A stretch of 31,923 nt of DNA from a virus. This document shows positions 3,909 through 25,090 of the stretch, in pieces; within the stretch, counting starts at the first letter, position 1, and each line of letters begins with the position of its first letter. The position numbers and the translations under genes are program-made. Under the pieces are notes generated by a model. The model was not told the DNA's origin. It was given only the letters and a program-made list of their open reading frames with translations, and ran no database searches. The stretch covers positions 1 through 31,923 of IMG/VR virus record IMGVR_UViG_3300034061_002094. One strand, written 5' to 3'.

Positions 3909-5483
3909 CTAACTAAAAATCCAACTAAAGTTTTCTTTCCCTCCCTTAGTGTCATCTAAAAGATATGGATTATCACGACCTGTAGCGAAATATACACCTT
4001 GGGTTGTACTTGGTTTGCTTATTCCACCTAATGCTGCTCTAGTAAGGTCATGACTCTGTTGTCTGAATTTCAGTGACGTATCTCGTAAATACATCCCCAT
4101 GCCGAACGACATTATTAAGTCATCATTATATCCTGATTGTGCTTCTGCTCGGCCATTTTTCCATACAAATACCTTCATTTCTTCTAATAAGCGTTTAGAT
4201 TTTATTGTAACTGATCTATCTCCGATATACTCTCTAAGTTTGTTTATCACTAGCGGTCGTGTTCTAAGAGACATAGTAAATCCTGGAGTCACATTATCAC
4301 TGTTTTCATACTTATTAAAATATGACTCAACAGTTAAGGTGTCTGCTTTAGGTGAATAATACATGTTTGGATACCCTCGTTCTAAAATAGCGTCTATTGT
4401 GGCCCATCCTATATTAGCGTTTTCTACAACAAGTAATGCTTGGTTGTATTCTGTAGCTACACCCACTAAAAAATATCCAAATTCTTTAGGTGGCAATTGG
4501 CCTTTATATTCAGCTACCTGTGTATTAGTAGCAATGTCTATGACATGAAATGCTGAAAAGTCCCTACCATCTCCTCTCGCTACGTCCGCCACTAGCATAT
4601 AATCTCTTTGATAATCTGGTTGTTCCCATACCCAGTAATTTTGGTCAGCCCCCCTGCGTTCAACTGGATCTTGTATTGTAGTTGTGGATATGAATTCTAC
4701 CCATTCACTATAGAATACTACATCACCAGATGTATTAAAGTTACAGTCACATTCTTGTGCCGCTAATCTTGGGTCACCTAAGAGTTCGTCTTGTTTTTTT
4801 CTCCAAGCATCATCACGTTCAGGGTGTACAAACCATGGTAACTTAATAGGTAAGAAATCATTATCTGCGTTTTCGGCTGCAATCCATGTTTGGTGAAACC
4901 AGTTTCCCGTTCCGTATGGTGTGGATAATACTATAGCACCACCGCCTGTTGCAAGAGTTTGTTGTGCAGATGCCCATGTTTCTTCAATATTTTCTATGAA
5001 CGCAGCCTCGTCTACTATAAGTAGAGACACAGCTTCTGAACGTGCTGCGTCGCTATTTGACGATTTGGCTTTGATTTGGGATCCGTTAGCTAGCCGTATA
5101 GATAACTTATTGTTTTCTTCAGCAGTTACTTTCAACCACGACGGTAAGTTATCATACATGAACTTAACCTTAGTAACCATATTGCGGGCTGTTTCCTGTG
5201 TTTTAGATAAACATAAGACGTTTTTATCTTTATGAAATAACATTAACCATAATGAGTATCCAGCAGCCAATGTTGATATACCTAACTGTCTAGATTTAAG
5301 TACTATTGAATATGGGTTATCTTTCCATAATGTTAATACTTTACCTTGGAATGGATATAAATTAAATATAACGCGTCCTCGCTGTGGATGTTGGATGAAT
5401 GTGTATTTTCTAATAAAATGTTCAGGTGAGGCTGCGCACTTTATATATTCTTCTTTTATTATATTTTTTATATCTTGGTTCAT
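3909..5483 (-). CDS. Terminase large subunit (T4 gp17-like)
   Basis: This ATPase-nuclease pumps DNA into the prohead and cuts the concatemer. The 524-residue protein has the N-terminal ATPase with Walker A variant SRQLGIST (64-71), Walker B LLIVDE followed by AAF (about 154-162) and the coupling motif STPYGTGN (187-194). The C-terminal RNase H-like nuclease has acidic residues in VADVARGDGRDF (D300), LLVVENANIG (E354) and GYNDDLIMS (D454/D455). Length is near the T4-type norm (about 610) minus the N-terminal extension. An ATATTTATA box lies 11 nt before the ATG, and a strong terminator just upstream isolates it from the preceding gene. No small terminase subunit is visible in the window. Confidence 0.96.
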   Translation of the reverse strand: MNQDIKNIIKEEYIKCAASPEHFIRKYTFIQHPQRGRVIFNLYPFQGKVLTLWKDNPYSIVLKSRQLGISTLAAGYSLWLMLFHKDKNVLCLSKTQETARNMVTKVKFMYDNLPSWLKVTAEENNKLSIRLANGSQIKAKSSNSDAARSEAVSLLIVDEAAFIENIEETWASAQQTLATGGGAIVLSTPYGTGNWFHQTWIAAENADNDFLPIKLPWFVHPERDDAWRKKQDELLGDPRLAAQECDCNFNTSGDVVFYSEWVEFISTTTIQDPVERRGADQNYWVWEQPDYQRDYMLVADVARGDGRDFSAFHVIDIATNTQVAEYKGQLPPKEFGYFLVGVATEYNQALLVVENANIGWATIDAILERGYPNMYYSPKADTLTVESYFNKYENSDNVTPGFTMSLRTRPLVINKLREYIGDRSVTIKSKRLLEEMKVFVWKNGRAEAQSGYNDDLIMSFGMGMYLRDTSLKFRQQSHDLTRAALGGISKPSTTQGVYFATGRDNPYLLDDTKGGKENFSWIFS

Positions 5484-7519: not shown

Positions 7520-8386
7520 TTATTTATATTTCCATTTATACCCATATGCTGTTTCTTGTAAACCTATAAGACATTTTCTTATGGTTTCCCCACTTGTATT
7601 TTTAATTTCTATTCCAGCTTGTCTTATACTAGGCCATTCTTTTATGTAATTACCTTTTAAGTCATATTGAATTATATGTTTTCCTCGAGAATGGCCACCA
7701 GCTGTTTTACCTTTATTGCTATTACTAATTCTTTTTCGTCTTAATATTTCTATATTTTCTTTACCTAATAATTCTACTTCTTGCTGTCTTAATCGTTTTT
7801 TAGAATTATTCCATATGCCTTTATTTTCTTTAGTCATATTTGATATATCTTTTGTAAAATTATTACAACATTTTCTACTACAGTAATTTTGATACCCTTT
7901 AGTATAATTTTTAAATCTTTTTACATTGTTTCCACAAAGACATATAATATTTTTTAATTCTATGTTTTTATTAAAAGAATAATTAATACAATTTTTATTA
8001 TTATCGTTTAAAATAATATGAGGATATTTATTTTGGAAGGAAGTAATACATTTTTCATTAATTACTAATCCTAATTCTTGTTGTTTCCTTAATTTTAAAT
8101 ATTCATAGGTTCTAGAAGATATAAATACATTATATTGAAATTCTTTTCTTTTTTTAACAGTAGACATCATAAAAGCAGCATGAATTAATTTAAAATTCCT
8201 TGGATAAATTTCTACTAACAATAAATGACATAAGAAATGTTCTCTAGCTGTTAATTCAACTAGGTTTTCTTTACCATCTGTTCCCCCCATACATCGAGGA
8301 ATTATATGATGTTTTTCTTTATAACCTTCTAGTATTCTATTTTTAGCTTTTTCAATAATTTGATTGTAAATTCTTTTATAATCCAT
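7520..8386 (-). CDS. Free-standing HNH homing endonuclease with NUMOD-type DNA-binding tail
   Basis: A 288-residue protein. The N-terminal HNH nuclease core is KEKHHIIPRCMGGTDG (24-38) followed by ENLVELTAREHFLCH (40-54), giving the double His, central Asn and later His residues expected for metal binding and catalysis. A treble-clef-like Cys cluster follows (C149, C151, C169, C173, C174). Residues about 236-288 (IIQYDLKGNYIKEWPSIRQA onward) form a NUMOD1-type sequence-specific binding module. Such enzymes spread their own gene into empty sites. It sits immediately downstream of the intein-bearing oxidoreductase gene and is preceded by a hairpin at 8390-8410. Confidence 0.93.
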   Translation of the reverse strand: MDYKRIYNQIIEKAKNRILEGYKEKHHIIPRCMGGTDGKENLVELTAREHFLCHLLLVEIYPRNFKLIHAAFMMSTVKKRKEFQYNVFISSRTYEYLKLRKQQELGLVINEKCITSFQNKYPHIILNDNNKNCINYSFNKNIELKNIICLCGNNVKRFKNYTKGYQNYCSRKCCNNFTKDISNMTKENKGIWNNSKKRLRQQEVELLGKENIEILRRKRISNSNKGKTAGGHSRGKHIIQYDLKGNYIKEWPSIRQAGIEIKNTSGETIRKCLIGLQETAYGYKWKYK

Positions 8387-8427: not shown

Positions 8428-10854
8428 TTATTTATTCACTTCTCGAAGAATAGAATCAGCAACCATTAATCCATGTAATGCTGATATATAAATTCCTCTA
8501 GCTCCAGCGGCGTCTCCTTGTAAGTGAACATTAGGATATTGTGGTAAAGATAAATTATTTTTATCTAATACTATTTCATTAGTTAAGAATTTAACTTCAG
8601 GGCAATAAAATATATAATCATTATTTATACCAAATGTTGTGTTTAAATCATCTATAAATTCTAGTATATAATCAGCATATTTACCAAAACCTTCTTTAAA
8701 TTTATCTAACGATATTTTATACCCAGGCACTTTATTACCTTGATCTGTTAATGATGGTTCACGATTAGATGGAGAATAATACGCTGCTTCGCCATTGTCT
8801 TGGAAAAAATTTACTAATTGTGTACTAAATTTAAATGGGTCTTCTATACCTCTGGCTTCTAGTAATATACCAAAATTGGTTAAGCCATTATATTTTTTAG
8901 GATCTTTATGGGCATGTCCGTTGTATGATTTCATCCCATATGTTTCTTCTTCAGCAACGAACGCAGCAAAATTATTTGTGCAATTATGAATAACTAATGG
9001 TGTATTCCCAGCTATAAAGTTATGGGTGTTTTCTACTTCAAAATCATATACCATCCCATCATAATATTCTGACTCTATTGAATAAATTTTTTCATAATTT
9101 TTAGTGTCTCTTTTTTTTAATTCAATATTAATATTCTCTTGTAGTAATTTATTTTTATTAATGTTTTGTAGCTTTAGTTTATTACTTAATAATAACATTG
9201 AATCCCTTTGAGCAACATTAATTATATTAATTTGGGAATTTTCTTTAAAATTAGTTGATTGTTTTCTAGTTCTACTTTTGTAAGATATTCCTAAATAATT
9301 GAACAAATATGTTAAGTCTCTATATAATAAATCAGATATTGTGAAATAATCTAAACAAATATTATGTTCTTTTTTTACTCTACCGTCCCCATCTATTAAT
9401 CCTGATAAGAATGAGTATATTTCTTCTTCAGACCAATTTAATATTGATTTTGGTAGTCCTCTTTCTTTGCCTTTTTTAAAGCACTCTTCATTAATTAAAA
9501 ATTCTTTTAATATTTTAGAAGTAAAATTTAATACAGAATAGTTATCATATTGTTGTTTAGAACTATAATTTTCATTTTGGTTATTTAATATATTAATTAC
9601 TCTATCTAAAATATAATCTTCATTAGTTAAATTAAAAGAATTAGTGTTCCATTTTGAATTATATTGCCCACTACCATCTGCAAACCATAATCCAAACATC
9701 CATAATTGTTCATTACTATAATTTGTTCCCTTTATATTACTTAATTTAGGGAAATTTTTAGGGGTAACTAATCTATCTCCAATTATTAAATTTTTCGCTT
9801 TTTTCTCAATTATTTTATTTAACTTAAAACTGTCATCTTTGCCTCCATCTTTACGATCATATTCATCTTTAATTATTTCTTTTTCCCAAACAAAATATAT
9901 GTGATCTTCAGTAGTTGTTAATTTATTATTAACAGTAACTAAATTTCCTTTATATTCTCTATTAAATATTGTTTTGGGATTAATAAATTCTGTGGTTTGT
10001 TTGTCAAAATTATAAGTTAATATTTTATCATTTTTTAAAATTTCATCTATATTAACAAATATTTTATATCCATTTCTTTCTATATGAATTTTTTCAGTTC
10101 CGGGTAAGCAAAAGCTGCGCCCACTATCTTCTCCAAATTTCTTATATAATTTGAAGTCATATGCTATTTTATTTAATTCTTCAAAATATTTACCATCAGT
10201 TTCATAACGAACACCAAATTGAGCTGGTTTCGGGACTGTAGTTAAATTATTTTCTTTAATTAATTTAGTAAGTAAATCCATTCCTGATTTGCCAGTTCCA
10301 ATAATTAATTTATCGTATTTAATATAGTCATGTCCTATACCTATTTCATTACGTTTAAAATCAATATTTGTTATTTCAACATTATATATTTGTCTTACTC
10401 CAACTTTATCAAAGTATTCAAATATATTTTTTACCTGTTGTTGACCATAATCTGTACCTAAGTGATAACAAGGTGATTGTCTCAATTCAAATGGTGAATC
10501 TTTAATAAATTGAGGTTCTTCAACTGGTTCAGTGTACATAATTTTAGATGGGTCTGGGTGGTATTTGACTATATAGTCATATAACTGTTTAGATAATTCT
10601 ATTGCATGTTCTTCATCTTGGCAATAATGTGGATAAAATAAACCACCTTGTTTAAATGAAGGAATTACTTTAAAATCACTCCATGTTCCAGCGCCACCGG
10701 CTCCCGTCATTACTTCTTCAGGTTGTCTATTATAGATACTATTACCTTTATCTATAATAGTAATTTTAGTTGGATCGTAACCATTTTTTAGTAAGTGAAG
10801 AACTCCATATTGTGTAGCTACACCTGCACCTACAATTATAATTTTCTTTTCCAT
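8428..10854 (-). CDS. FAD-dependent oxidoreductase interrupted by an intein
   Basis: The 808-residue precursor is a 432-residue extein plus a 376-residue intein. The N-extein (1-248) opens with a Rossmann dinucleotide motif IIIVGAGVATQYG and carries GAGGAGTWSDFK (51-62), the GGAGxxSDGK-type motif of the COG2509 FAD dehydrogenase group. The C-extein (625-808) ends with PNVHLQGDAAGARGIYISAL, the usual C-terminal FAD-binding GD motif. The intein splits the conserved SF-C motif (extein ...RSF then C625). The cell substrate is unknown. A TTTG-N20-TATATTAA promoter lies in front of it. The spliced enzyme looks complete, so activity is expected only after splicing. Confidence 0.92.
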   Translation of the reverse strand: MEKKIIIVGAGVATQYGVLHLLKNGYDPTKITIIDKGNSIYNRQPEEVMTGAGGAGTWSDFKVIPSFKQGGLFYPHYCQDEEHAIELSKQLYDYIVKYHPDPSKIMYTEPVEEPQFIKDSPFELRQSPCYHLGTDYGQQQVKNIFEYFDKVGVRQIYNVEITNIDFKRNEIGIGHDYIKYDKLIIGTGKSGMDLLTKLIKENNLTTVPKPAQFGVRYETDGKYFEELNKIAYDFKLYKKFGEDSGRSFCLPGTEKIHIERNGYKIFVNIDEILKNDKILTYNFDKQTTEFINPKTIFNREYKGNLVTVNNKLTTTEDHIYFVWEKEIIKDEYDRKDGGKDDSFKLNKIIEKKAKNLIIGDRLVTPKNFPKLSNIKGTNYSNEQLWMFGLWFADGSGQYNSKWNTNSFNLTNEDYILDRVINILNNQNENYSSKQQYDNYSVLNFTSKILKEFLINEECFKKGKERGLPKSILNWSEEEIYSFLSGLIDGDGRVKKEHNICLDYFTISDLLYRDLTYLFNYLGISYKSRTRKQSTNFKENSQINIINVAQRDSMLLLSNKLKLQNINKNKLLQENINIELKKRDTKNYEKIYSIESEYYDGMVYDFEVENTHNFIAGNTPLVIHNCTNNFAAFVAEEETYGMKSYNGHAHKDPKKYNGLTNFGILLEARGIEDPFKFSTQLVNFFQDNGEAAYYSPSNREPSLTDQGNKVPGYKISLDKFKEGFGKYADYILEFIDDLNTTFGINNDYIFYCPEVKFLTNEIVLDKNNLSLPQYPNVHLQGDAAGARGIYISALHGLMVADSILREVNK
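8983..10110 (-). mobile_element. Intein with LAGLIDADG homing endonuclease
   Basis: Residues 249-624 of the precursor. Splicing blocks are visible: block A CLPGTEKIHIE with Cys1 at 249, block B TTTEDHIYFVW (TxxH), block F VYDFEVENTHNFIAG (603-617) and block G LVIHN with the terminal His-Asn (623-624), followed by Cys+1. The endonuclease has two LAGLIDADG-type helices, WMFGLWFADG (385-394) and FLSGLIDGDG (482-491). All key residues are intact, so it should splice and probably cut. It is a class 1 intein in a conserved motif of the host protein, the usual location. Confidence 0.94.
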
Positions 10855-11309: not shown

Positions 11310-11555
11310 TTAGTTTTCCAATTCTTGTACATACATTAAGAAATCCTCATACACTTCTCTAACATTTTTATTAGAATTAACCATTGCTTCATTGAGCATT
11401 GAACTAATATCTCGTTTAGATTCAGTCAGTAAATTACCAAACTTAGATAATGTCTGTTCAGCTAACAAGTAGTTGTCTTGGTCTCCACCATAATCATCAA
11501 GATCGTTGAGATAAAGTTTAATATACTCGTTTAACTGTCGTTTGGATAGTTTCAT
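11310..11555 (-). CDS. Small acidic helical protein with leader-like start
   Basis: An 81-residue protein starting MKLSKRQLNEYIKLYLNDLD. I chose the ATG at 11553-11555 over an in-frame GTG 18 nt upstream because it gives the leader-type N-terminus (QLNEYIKLYL with L-N-E). It is acidic and helical, with a second LLTES and a MLNEAM segment further on. The start overlaps the end of the DUF6884-like gene by 38 nt, a larger overlap than usual here. The function is unknown. Confidence 0.65.
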   Translation of the reverse strand: MKLSKRQLNEYIKLYLNDLDDYGGDQDNYLLAEQTLSKFGNLLTESKRDISSMLNEAMVNSNKNVREVYEDFLMYVQELEN

Positions 11556-12018
11556 ATATGATATTTTTAACACGTTTTAATACCTCTTTAATTTTTTGTA
11601 CTTGTGAATTTAACCATTTAAGACGCTCACCAAAGCGTTTACCTTCCATAGGTGTTTCTATATGATCTTCAGGAATATATTTTAGAAGTGGTTTCATATA
11701 TTCAGAACCAGTCAACATTATAAATGTATCTTTTTCTGGTTTGATGCCGTTTTGTTTCATTTGTTTGTATACTTCTTCAGCCCACTTTTCTTTCTCATCT
11801 TTTGACATTTCTTTAAGTGTTTTATCATATGGAGATAATTTTTTACTTAATGGAACTAAATGATGTTTAGCGGATAATATGAACATTTTATCCGGCTTTA
11901 ATTCTTTACCATATTCTAGTGTTTTTTGGAACATAGGTGATGCAGAATATAAGTCTTGGGCCGCAGCTGGTTTGTCTAGTTTAGACTTAGTACAACTTAA
12001 TAATACAATTTTGGCCAT
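11518..12018 (-). CDS. DUF6884-like protein
   Basis: A 166-residue protein starting MAKIVLLSCTKSKLDKPAAA. The order of motifs fits the DUF6884 family: SCTKSKL at the end of the first strand, then DLYSASPMF, MFILSAKHHLVPLS with the strand-loop ILSAKxxLV, and SPYDKTL. A later MLTGSEYMKPL strand-helix resembles the GxxY segment of the family. The biochemical role of the family is not established to my knowledge. The C-terminal 35 residues are a basic helix. It begins right after an ATATTTATA box that fills its entire 15-nt upstream gap. Confidence 0.75.
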   Translation of the reverse strand: MAKIVLLSCTKSKLDKPAAAQDLYSASPMFQKTLEYGKELKPDKMFILSAKHHLVPLSKKLSPYDKTLKEMSKDEKEKWAEEVYKQMKQNGIKPEKDTFIMLTGSEYMKPLLKYIPEDHIETPMEGKRFGERLKWLNSQVQKIKEVLKRVKNIIYETIQTTVKRVY

Positions 12019-12034: not shown

Positions 12035-12705
12035 TATACATTCTGTATTTCTACTTGAGGTTTAGGAAATATACTATTAGTAATCTTTTTATAGTCTTCA
12101 TCCCACACGTATTCCATATGTTTAACAATAGGAAAATATTTTTTCCAGTCTATTTTTTGAATATCTTCAAAATGTTTGTATTGTTTATTAACTCTATTAT
12201 CATAAGCATACTGTGACTTATAAGCTAATATAATTGATGGATGAGTAAGACGTAATGTATATTCTCCTTTATATTTTATATGGACTGAATCTTTAGCTCT
12301 GAGGATATGATTATTGAATATGTCAATTTTAGTGATTAAGTTCCACATTCCATCCACATTTACTTCTCCTTTAGACAATTGGATTAGTTCTTTATTTAGG
12401 AAATATGAAGGTGGTTTTATGTTAATGGAAAGTATATTTCCATCTGCTATAGTATCATAATCTCCACTCTTTATATCAAATTCTAAGTTAAAGAAATCAC
12501 GTACTGTTACCAGTTCTTCTTCAGTAAGAGACTCTAATATACTTAAATCAATGTCAGGAGAACGACCATTGAAGTCATAGTCCATAATATTAAACATATA
12601 TAGTGCTAAACTTCCTCCTAACACAAACTTATCACTCATGTTAAATAATGGTATAATAATGTCCTCATATTTTTGAGGCAACTCGTTTATTTTAAATTCA
12701 CTCAT
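12034..12705 (-). CDS. Nucleotidyltransferase-fold protein (pol beta superfamily)
   Basis: A 223-residue protein whose N-terminal third has the nucleotidyltransferase signature: KFVLGGSLALYMF (GGS on the first helix) followed by RSPDIDLSI (DxD metal ligands). A later strand, ILSINIKPPS, may supply the third acidic-position strand, but the expected Asp is not obvious. The THPSIILAYKSQYAYD helix and KHFEDIQKI segment recall the C-terminal helices of AbiEii/MNT-like nucleotidyltransferases. The substrate is unknown. It overlaps the VWA gene by 4 nt (ATGA), so the two are translationally coupled. Confidence 0.7.
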   Translation of the reverse strand: MSEFKINELPQKYEDIIIPLFNMSDKFVLGGSLALYMFNIMDYDFNGRSPDIDLSILESLTEEELVTVRDFFNLEFDIKSGDYDTIADGNILSINIKPPSYFLNKELIQLSKGEVNVDGMWNLITKIDIFNNHILRAKDSVHIKYKGEYTLRLTHPSIILAYKSQYAYDNRVNKQYKHFEDIQKIDWKKYFPIVKHMEYVWDEDYKKITNSIFPKPQVEIQNV

Positions 12706-13892
12706 TTATTAATTTTTACTTTAGCTCCAGGTAATTCTTCATTTATATCAGACTGTGAACAATGTACCCACAATATAGGTTTAATTGGTTTTGTATTAGG
12801 TGATGGAGCACCACCATCAGTCAGATAAATTAAATTAGCATACTTGTCTCTATGTTCTAGTAAATATTTCATTACTGGTTCAAAACTAGTACCACCACGT
12901 CCTTTTACCTCAATATCTTCTCTTTGACCTTCATACTTATACACTCTTTGAATTGCAGCATCACATTCTACAATATCAATATAAGTACCTGTTTTGTAAA
13001 TGTGGTATATCTCGTTAAAAAATTCAATTAAATCTTTAGTACTAACACTACCTGATGTGTCTATAGCGACTAACGTTTTTTTCTTCTGTTTAATTTTTAA
13101 TGCTGGACCACTACCAAATCTACGGTTTGGTTTACGTCTTGTTTTCTTAGTGTAAGTTACAGTAGACATACTATTAAAACGACGTAAATAAGATGACCAA
13201 TCAATAACTGGTTCGTTTATTTCGAATAAACTATCAATATAGTCTTTCATTTCTGATGGTATTAAACCTCTACCTCGACTTTGTCTTTCTAGTTCTTCAG
13301 CTATTTCTTTTAACTGGTAGTCAATTTGTTTGCCAATTAGATTACGTTCTGCCTCACCTAACTCCTCCATAGCCTTCCATAACTCATGGATATCACCTAT
13401 ACTATCTCCTCCTTTCATAGCTTGAGCTAGTTCTCCATCTGGATTCTCATTTATTTCTTTTTGTAGGACTTCATAATAATATTTAGTACCTTGTTTGGGC
13501 AGTAAATTTAATTCTTTGAATGGTGACTCAGTGATTTCTAATCCAATCCATGTATCACCTTTCATGTCATCGTTAATATATTGGTTGATTTCTAAGTCAG
13601 CGGCTACATTATATAGCTCTTTATTAGGGAACCTATCAAAATTATTCAAATGAAAAAACGCTACATGCAATAGTTCATGTTTAAGTACGCCCATTTTAGT
13701 CTTCTCATCTTGCTCAGACCAAAATTTAGGATTAACTACCAACTTTACATTAATATTATCTGGTGTGACACACGCGGTTGGAATAGATTTACTTAATTCT
13801 TTATTGAGAGATATAAGAAATAGACCATAAAATGGTTCTTTAAGCATGAGTGTTTTAGAACACTTAGTAATTTCTTGGTAAATTTGTTCCAT
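12702..13892 (-). CDS. Metallopeptidase-VWA domain protein (COG3864-like)
   Basis: A 396-residue protein. The N-terminal zinc-peptidase-like domain has HELLH at 72-76 and a helix with NVAADLEINQYI (95-106) that would supply a further ligand. The C-terminal VWA domain has a full MIDAS: DTSGS at 278-282, T335 in GGTSFEP, and D359 in YLTDGGAP. The layout matches the DUF2201 metallopeptidase plus VWA-like family. Such VWA proteins act with MoxR-type AAA+ ATPases, and one is encoded two genes upstream. A basic linker (249-275, KKTRRKPNRRFG) precedes the VWA domain. Its own promoter lies at 13909-13940, inside the end of the upstream gene. Confidence 0.9.
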   Translation of the reverse strand: MEQIYQEITKCSKTLMLKEPFYGLFLISLNKELSKSIPTACVTPDNINVKLVVNPKFWSEQDEKTKMGVLKHELLHVAFFHLNNFDRFPNKELYNVAADLEINQYINDDMKGDTWIGLEITESPFKELNLLPKQGTKYYYEVLQKEINENPDGELAQAMKGGDSIGDIHELWKAMEELGEAERNLIGKQIDYQLKEIAEELERQSRGRGLIPSEMKDYIDSLFEINEPVIDWSSYLRRFNSMSTVTYTKKTRRKPNRRFGSGPALKIKQKKKTLVAIDTSGSVSTKDLIEFFNEIYHIYKTGTYIDIVECDAAIQRVYKYEGQREDIEVKGRGGTSFEPVMKYLLEHRDKYANLIYLTDGGAPSPNTKPIKPILWVHCSQSDINEELPGAKVKINK

Positions 13893-15085: not shown

Positions 15086-16267
15086 TCAACGCATTATATA
15101 TGATACTAAATTCTTATCCAACATCATCACTTTAAACTTATTTGGATTGTTGTTATAGATTGACTTGATCATGTTATAACAAATATCTTGTGTAAAGATT
15201 TTCTCATTTACAATCTTAGAAATCCTATCAATAATACTTTTCTCTACATGATTTGATTTAGCAAACAAATCCAAATAGTTAATAATACGAGTTGATAGTG
15301 TTGAGGCAATATCTGCTCGATACTTAGTATCTTTACCAACTAGAGATTTTAATGTATTAGTAACATATTTTTCATCTTGATCAAATACATTTTGTGGTGT
15401 GATCATTTTATCTAGCTTATTATTAATAAACATTGTAAACAAACTACTAAACTCTGATCCAACACTACCTTCTCCAATCATTTGAATTAGCGGTAATGAA
15501 CTTTCAAAACTTTTAATTGAGGAAATACTATTAAAAAACATTGACACACTCCTACTATTAACATCTTTTGTAACTAGTTCAGGATGCATAAGTAAAAAGT
15601 TAATACAACGACCATCAATTTCACTTTCTTCAGCCCATTTGGCCCAACAATCAATGTCAAACTTTAATTGTACTGAAATAAAACGTGTTTTTTGCGCGTT
15701 ATCAATACTATTAACTAAATAGTCACCATTATCAGGATTAGCAGTTAATATAATATGCCAATCTTTAGGTAATGTCCAACTAATATATTGTTGACGGTCA
15801 ATCAATTCCATTACAGCTTGAATAAATCTAACATCAGCGCGATTCCAGTCATCTAATAATAAAATACCACCTTTTTCTTTATTAGCAATCCATTCAGGTG
15901 GACAATAACTCATACGATTATTACCAGTCGATTTATAGCCTTGTTTATGATATTCATCAAATGCGTGTTCGTCAATCCAAATTTTTTCTTTTTTAAGTTC
16001 TACTTCAAACTGACGAATTGGAAAACCAACCAAGTCACCAATTTCTTCAATTTGGGCTAAATTTAACTTAACAAAATGTAAGTTCTCTTCTTTAGCTAAC
16101 TGAATAATTTGTGATGTTTTACCAATACCCGATTCACCAATAACCTCAATACTAACAGGTGATTTACCTTGTTCTTGTAGGAATCGGTTATTCTCAATAA
16201 TATGTTTAAGAAATGTTTTTAATTCATTTGGATTAACATAAACCAAATCTTTGGATTTTTTAGCCAT
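15086..16267 (-). CDS. MoxR-type AAA+ ATPase
   Basis: A 393-residue protein with Walker A GESGIGKTS (44-52), Walker B GILLLDDWNRAD (134-145), sensor 1 LTANPDNGDY (174-183) and a candidate arginine finger in AQKTRF (R195). The ordering and the DDWNRAD-type motif are typical of MoxR/dynein-like AAA+ proteins that remodel targets together with VWA-domain partners. The C-terminal 190 residues are helical, as in the family. The metallopeptidase-VWA gene two genes downstream is its likely partner. Expression is expected from the promoter at 16284-16315, twin of that of the next gene. Confidence 0.9.
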   Translation of the reverse strand: MAKKSKDLVYVNPNELKTFLKHIIENNRFLQEQGKSPVSIEVIGESGIGKTSQIIQLAKEENLHFVKLNLAQIEEIGDLVGFPIRQFEVELKKEKIWIDEHAFDEYHKQGYKSTGNNRMSYCPPEWIANKEKGGILLLDDWNRADVRFIQAVMELIDRQQYISWTLPKDWHIILTANPDNGDYLVNSIDNAQKTRFISVQLKFDIDCWAKWAEESEIDGRCINFLLMHPELVTKDVNSRSVSMFFNSISSIKSFESSLPLIQMIGEGSVGSEFSSLFTMFINNKLDKMITPQNVFDQDEKYVTNTLKSLVGKDTKYRADIASTLSTRIINYLDLFAKSNHVEKSIIDRISKIVNEKIFTQDICYNMIKSIYNNNPNKFKVMMLDKNLVSYIMR

Positions 16268-24307: not shown

Positions 24308-25090
24308 TTAAATATAAATACCTCCTTTTACATATCCTTCATTATCTTCTATCATTTGTTCTATTTGCCCTTTGGTGTATTTTTTGGAAAATGGAGTATT
24401 AGATAAATATAAACCACCTCCAACTTGTAAGTTATCAGGGAGTGAGGTGATTTTAGTATTTTCTAAATCTAAATCACCTCCAACTTTTAAATTATCAGGG
24501 AGTGAGGTGATTTTAGTATTTTCTAAATCTAAATCACCTCCAACTTTTAAATTATCAGGGAGTGAGGTGATTGGAGTATTTCTTAAATTTAAATCACCTC
24601 CAACTTTTAAGTTATCAGGGAGTGAGGTGATTGGAGTATTTCCTAAATATAAATCACCTCCAACTTGTAAGTTATCAGGGAGTGAGGTGATTTTAGTATT
24701 TTTTAAATATAAACCACCTCCAACTTTTAAGTTATCAGGGAGTGAGGTGATTGGAGTATTTCTTAAATATAAACCACCTCCAACTTTTAAGTTATCAGGG
24801 AGTGAGGTGATTGGAGTATTTCTTAAATTTAAATCACCTCCAACTTTTAAATTATCAGGGAGTGAGGTGATTGGAGTATCATCTAAATATAAACCACCTC
24901 CAACTTGTAAATTATCAGGGAGTGAGGCGATTGGAGTATTATTTAAATTTAAATAACCTTTACCCCCATCCTTGATGTATTGTTGGATTTTCTTTTGGAG
25001 GACTATTTGATAGTTCTTAGCACGTTCTTCAGGAGAGCGTCTAGGAACCAATATCTTGTTCTCATTTAATATGTCAAGGAGTTTGATCAT
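24308..25090 (-). CDS. Leader-tagged leucine-rich-repeat protein
   Basis: A 260-residue protein starting MIKLLDILNENK, identical over the first 11 residues except the last to the leader of the 159-residue protein. A basic helical linker (15-45) follows. Then come nine to ten 20-residue repeats of the form NTPITSLPDNLKVGGDLNLR, one beta strand and turn per unit, giving a curved solenoid suited to protein binding. The last 25 residues are a capping helix region (YTKGQIEQMIEDNEGYV). LRR solenoids without enzyme domains usually act as binding proteins. With the leader, an injected host-binding protein is possible (inference). The repeats are nearly identical at DNA level. Confidence 0.88.
   Translation of the reverse strand: MIKLLDILNENKILVPRRSPEERAKNYQIVLQKKIQQYIKDGGKGYLNLNNTPIASLPDNLQVGGGLYLDDTPITSLPDNLKVGGDLNLRNTPITSLPDNLKVGGGLYLRNTPITSLPDNLKVGGGLYLKNTKITSLPDNLQVGGDLYLGNTPITSLPDNLKVGGDLNLRNTPITSLPDNLKVGGDLDLENTKITSLPDNLKVGGDLDLENTKITSLPDNLQVGGGLYLSNTPFSKKYTKGQIEQMIEDNEGYVKGGIYI
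24413..24952 (-). repeat. Nine tandem 60-nt repeats in the LRR gene
   Basis: Nine consecutive 60-nt units, each encoding one 20-residue LRR. They share long identical blocks such as TTATCAGGGAGTGAGG (plus strand) with only a few substitutions per unit, mostly at the TTTTAGTATTTTC/TTGGAGTATTTCT position and the AAATC/AAACC variants. The period is exact, so copy number could change by slippage or unequal recombination without frameshift. Confidence 0.95.

Follow-up and report, generated by a model that had tools for sequence, protein, structure and literature searches.

A predicted homing intein in the SFC motif of a COG2509-type flavoprotein from an uncultured T4-like phage

Analysis of a 31,923 bp virus record of IMG/VR (the whole stretch of DNA under study, referred to here as the window) points to a class 1 intein, furnished with its own LAGLIDADG endonuclease, which has invaded the conserved SF/C motif of a COG2509-type flavoprotein (the slash denoting the insertion point throughout) and which would splice out of the protein and home into co-infecting relatives, a reading to which we assign a probability of roughly 0.9. 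The anatomy of the insert, the existence of empty alleles, a core of flanking DNA shared by both known carriers and conversion-like tracts around the site form the basis of this reading. The window has a GC content of approximately 30% and nearly all of its genes lie on the minus strand. Since its terminase has its nearest match in Flavobacterium phage immuto (60%) and a portal gene is also encoded, the window is considered to be part of a T4-like phage genome, the host of which is probably a member of the Bacteroidota; the uncultured phage itself probably infects a flavobacterium.

According to the proposed mechanism, an acyl shift at Cys1 would be followed, after translation, by transfer to the +1 Cys and by cyclisation of the Asn, assisted by the His residues of blocks B and G. 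The intein would thereby be excised and the normal 432 aa enzyme left, the enzyme’s own conserved Cys serving as the +1 nucleophile. At the DNA level, the endonuclease would cleave the motif where a co-infecting relative has it uninterrupted, and a copy of the intein, together with a variable length of flanking DNA, would be inserted during repair.

Anatomy and distribution of the intein

The precursor, a flavin adenine dinucleotide (FAD) oxidoreductase interrupted by the intein, is encoded on the minus strand at positions 8428–10854 as a single open frame of 808 aa with Pfam and PHROG matches. The initial annotation placed the intein at these positions, which span the whole precursor, whereas the intein proper (376 aa, C249–N624; matched by PF14890, PF05204 and PF14528) occupies positions 8983–10110. 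It is preceded by an N-extein of 248 residues (10111–10854), recognised through the phrog_12409 match of the spliced sequence and containing the dinucleotide-binding motif GAGVATQ at residues 9–15, and is followed by a C-extein, delimited by alignment to intein-free alleles, which runs from Cys625 through the stop codon (8428–8982). The junctions proposed previously, F248/C249 and N624/C625, were located exactly as claimed, residues 248, 249, 624 and 625 being F, C (TGC), N (AAT) and C (TGC), respectively.

The class 1 assignment and the full set of splicing blocks and LAGLIDADG motifs put forward in the initial annotation were borne out by the Pfam and NCBIfam matches and by the blocks located in the sequence, all on the minus strand. 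Block A (CLPGTEKIHI, 10081–10110) begins with the nucleophile Cys1, block B (TTTEDHIYFV, 9889–9918) presents TxxH in the form of TEDH, and block G (TPLVIHN, 8983–9003) ends in the C-terminal His-Asn that is directly followed by the +1 Cys (VIHN/C). Block F (MVYDFEVENTHNFIAG, 9007–9054) falls within the match to TIGR01443, the NCBIfam model of the intein C-terminal splicing region (residues 602–625, E 1.3e-7), which also supports block G. Two LAGLIDADG motifs with their acidic residues were recognised: motif 1 (LWMFGLWFADG, 9673–9705), whose ADG was assigned by eye as the PF14528 match covers motif 2 only, and motif 2 (LSGLIDGDG, 9382–9408), whose GDG is supported by PF14528 (precursor residues 480–547) and PF05204. 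When the insert alone was searched, as had been suggested for it and for the spliced sequence separately, it matched Intein_splicing (PF14890, E 3.6e-18), Hom_end (E 4.9e-7) and LAGLIDADG_3 (E 1e-6), each above the cut-off. The predicted model of the intein alone, generated without an alignment, reached a pLDDT of 32 and is not used as support from structure.

Homologous viral contigs numbered 33 in a search with the spliced protein and 56 in a profile search. The site is contiguous and devoid of an insert in 54 of these 56; of the remaining two, L024 bears the intein and the other does not extend across the site. The empty site reads [ST]FC[TS]N, mostly as RSF/CTNNFAAF and as R[ST]F/C[ST]N in a 45%-identical branch, and a DNA form of it reads GGGCGCAGCTTT before and TGCACAAATAATTTTGC after the insertion point. 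Since 54 contigs are contiguous through the site, the junctions are exact, with C249 and N624 placed at them, and the in-frame insert is not one of the family’s own domains; these contigs are also the intein-free alleles which it had been proposed to look for among related phages. On its sequence features, the insert is a genuine class 1 intein with a LAGLIDADG homing endonuclease domain, and we infer that it splices.

The second carrier, L024, contains the same intein, with four of 1128 bases differing and 99% amino acid identity. It was the only further carrier recovered from IMG/VR, searched by protein and by DNA pattern, and from isolated phages and 395 Bacteroidota genomes, searched by protein, while a search of a phage collection with the intein returned a single match with 27.5% identity over 54% of its length. 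The intein is therefore rare in the collections searched. No group I intron was detected with Rfam in the window, L024, L027 or L080, the latter two being relatives described below. Inteins of other genes were also encountered. Two Bacteroidota genomes (L095 and L096) harbour one, approximately 25% identical to that of the window, in a gene resembling a GDP/UDP-sugar epimerase or decarboxylase. In L088, a sister phage contig of L032, a minus-strand frame of approximately 908 aa encodes a terminase large subunit with another LAGLIDADG intein (E 3.4e-10, below the Pfam cut-off), inserted as AAQEC/...HN/CDCDF, at a site that is empty in the window’s own terminase (AAQECDCNF).

Phages often harbour class 1 LAGLIDADG inteins. 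The TerL inteins of mycobacteriophages (PMC5050341) resemble the window intein in possessing the same splicing blocks with a nested LAGLIDADG endonuclease, in their sporadic occurrence among close relatives and in their insertion into a conserved motif. The window intein differs from them in that its host is a flavoprotein and in its low sequence similarity to any known intein.

Flanking DNA and evidence of movement

As only two intein-bearing alleles are known, conversion could be assessed on a single pair. The window and L024 differ at 62 of 5076 bp, comprising four differences in the 1128 bp intein, 40 in 365 bp of flanking sequence and 18 in the other 3583 bp. When 960 bp of extein sequence (−440 to +520 relative to the insertion point) were considered, all 40 differences were found between −215 and +150 (hypergeometric p = 3.9e-18, with boundaries drawn post hoc). 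Twenty close intein-free pairs displayed no enrichment in this interval (ratios of 0 to 1.3).

Within this divergent flank, a core of approximately 58 bp (−12 to +46) is identical in both intein-bearing alleles and unlike every intein-free allele (86% identity at best). On the minus strand of the window its upstream part (−12 to −1) corresponds to positions 10111–10122 and its downstream part, the first ~46 bp of the C-extein, to positions 8936–8982; the core is the putative minimal footprint carried along with the intein. A search for an intein-free donor allele carrying the exact core found none, the sole contig fitting the degenerate pattern GRSFCTNNFAA with an AGY serine, L013, being 86% identical to the core. 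Beyond the core, from +47 to +150, L024 is up to 95% like intein-free alleles and the window at most 85%, and no difference separates the window from L024 between +150 and +550; the flank upstream of the site gives a less distinct picture. A third contig, L027, matches the window at 99.7% identity over 3.8 kb downstream but has an empty site, and the two diverge solely in the surroundings of the site, starting at the contig edge (−87) and extending to about +440.

Taken together, these patterns suggest a recent transfer of the intein between phages. Most simply, homing would have introduced the intein into an intein-free backbone, the co-converted tracts differing between the window and L024 in their length or in the donor from which they came; homing with co-conversion may possibly have occurred twice. 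The movement among related phages envisaged in the initial annotation is thus consistent with the shared core, the conversion-like flanking tracts and the empty site of L027.

It is conceivable, though we consider it improbable, that the intein splices while its endonuclease is inactive or irrelevant, a single acquisition having taken place in the ancestor common to both carriers, with ordinary phage recombination accounting for the flank differences. There are just two known carriers, their inteins are near-identical and recombination is frequent in T4-like phages, all of which such a history would accommodate. It accounts less readily for differences that flank the intein on either side while the ~58 bp core is shared and the remainder of the gene is identical, for the lack of anything similar in close intein-free pairs, and for the retention of the acidic residues of both LAGLIDADG motifs.

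Homing by the intein must also be weighed against a second candidate for mobility, namely an open reading frame (7520–8386, minus strand) located 41 bp downstream of the host gene and encoding a MobB-like HNH homing endonuclease with a NUMOD1-like C-terminal end (phrog_655, E 2.5e-43). Its product is 29.4% identical over its full length (residues 1–287) to T4 MobB, a free-standing homing endonuclease, whereas the HNH gene of the window sits directly behind an intein-bearing gene. This gene is intact in L024, reduced in L027 (positions 640–900) to a remnant with an internal deletion of ~634 bp and a 1 bp frameshift, seemingly caught in the course of homing-gene decay, and absent from L002–L006, and it consequently represents a separate mobile gene near the intein. 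Its location directly after the host gene in the two carriers and its disruption in the intein-free L027 would fit a scenario in which the HNH enzyme, and not the LAGLIDADG domain, drove the movement and the intein was merely carried by co-conversion. We deem this unlikely, as the density of differences peaks at the intein site, the window and L024 are identical from +150 to +550, i.e. towards the HNH gene, and L027 has retained the HNH remnant on the same backbone without the intein.

The set represents a rare sequence-level case in uncultured phages, in which three near-identical backbones, two occupied and one empty, display conversion-like tracts centred on the intein, thereby opening the length of co-conversion and the frequency of homing to study in nature.

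The interrupted flavoprotein

The spliced protein of 432 aa matches phrog_12409, annotated as ‘dehydrogenase’ (E 1.2e-26), and 49 phage records, mainly of Campylobacter phages, at 25–28% identity. Its fold was compared by means of a predicted model of the intein-free L002 homologue (pLDDT 77.6, pTM 0.81), for which the best PDB match was 3nlc (VP0956 of Vibrio; Z 26.2, rmsd 3.1, 365 residues aligned, 18% identity), well ahead of the runner-up (Z 19.6). 3nlc, which we take to be a COG2509-type flavoprotein, was also the top match of a sequence profile (E 5e-5), in which ARSFCTNN is aligned with YSFCMCPG of 3nlc. The GxGxxG-like FAD motif GAGVATQ, the GGAG[TL][FW]SD segment (GGAGTWSD) and RSFC all align to this structure. 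VP0956 thus shares the SFC motif at the insertion point, and differs in being a cellular protein of 549 aa without an intein. The putative NAD(FAD)-utilizing dehydrogenase of Campylobacter phages (phrog_12409), for example gp8 of NCTC12673, is a full-length homologue with 27–28% identity and RTFC at the insertion motif (LRTFCVN in NCTC12673); unlike the window gene, it lacks an intein and resides in another genome neighbourhood.

The phrog_12409 match and the 3nlc-like fold agree with the earlier designation of the host as an FAD enzyme, as does the profile alignment with the placement of the intein in the SF/C motif of COG2509-type enzymes. Based on sequence and model, the host protein is a COG2509-type flavoprotein with predicted FAD binding and redox activity, likely a dehydrogenase or reductase that depends on flavin and serves the metabolism of the host or of the phage. 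The L002 model is weak just past the SFC motif (pLDDT about 40, residues 253–285), and for this reason no claim is made regarding the active site. Because the gene displays a dN/dS of 0.05–0.14 against relatives of 78–93% amino acid identity and a conserved synteny, an AAA_28 ATPase gene following it in 17 of the 17 relatives examined and the terminase gene in 15 of these 17, it is conserved under purifying selection and matters to these phages. Neither this conservation nor the presence of the intein indicates what the enzyme does, and the important redox function proposed in the initial annotation is a conjecture. Among the sampled Bacteroidota, a cellular copy was found only in a metagenome-assembled genome (L084), into which phage DNA may have been binned. 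The analysis flags a conserved flavoprotein gene, as yet uncharacterised, that precedes the terminase gene in a group of T4-like phages.

Since the insertion lies in the conserved Cys motif of a redox enzyme and this Cys is the +1 nucleophile, one could envisage that splicing is redox-dependent and that the intein acts as a switch that holds the enzyme back until circumstances inside the infected cell have shifted, a notion we hold to be very improbable. That the inserted 376 aa belong to the regular domains of this enzyme family instead of forming an intein, as the frame that is open throughout and the multi-domain nature of the host flavoprotein might suggest, is ruled out by the alignments, the insert being missing from the 54 contigs, the Campylobacter phage homologues and 3nlc and matching intein models.

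While the type of element is well known, the flavoprotein host family appears to be unreported for inteins, as no report of inteins in this family was found in the open-access literature, and it would thus be added to the host genes known as intein targets. The initial annotation had described an FAD oxidoreductase as an uncommon host, a view that stands in part: mycobacteriophage inteins reside in nucleic-acid enzymes and none in oxidoreductases (PMC5050341), but inteins are present in the ribonucleotide reductases of T4-like and Campylobacter phages (PMC3653736), enzymes that are oxidoreductases too. In the latter case a phage redox enzyme is likewise interrupted, although ribonucleotide reductase is unrelated to the window host enzyme and forms part of nucleotide metabolism.

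Additional observations

In L080 (positions 1–1000), whose homologue is ~48% identical, the FAD gene lacks its N-terminal portion as far as roughly residue 163–180, and an open reading frame for a GIY-YIG/NUMOD-type homing endonuclease is located directly upstream of the shortened gene. This contig begins inside the element, which may be a second mobile element splitting the FAD gene.

Near the FAD gene, a DUF6884 protein (11518–12018, E 7.7e-41) is retained in several relatives. L024 contains ~276 extra bp compared to the window (at about 5076–5352) downstream of the AAA_28 kinase gene. The product of 12702–13892 bears the PHROG label ‘HNH endonuclease’; as Pfam identifies DUF2201 metallopeptidase and VWA-like domains and an AAA ATPase is encoded nearby (15086–16267), these likely constitute a MoxR-VWA type pair and the label is likely erroneous. 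Finally, positions 24308–25090 encode a protein with about nine near-identical leucine-rich-like repeats of ‘SLPDNLKVGGDLYL’, and similar repeats were found elsewhere in L003 and L004.
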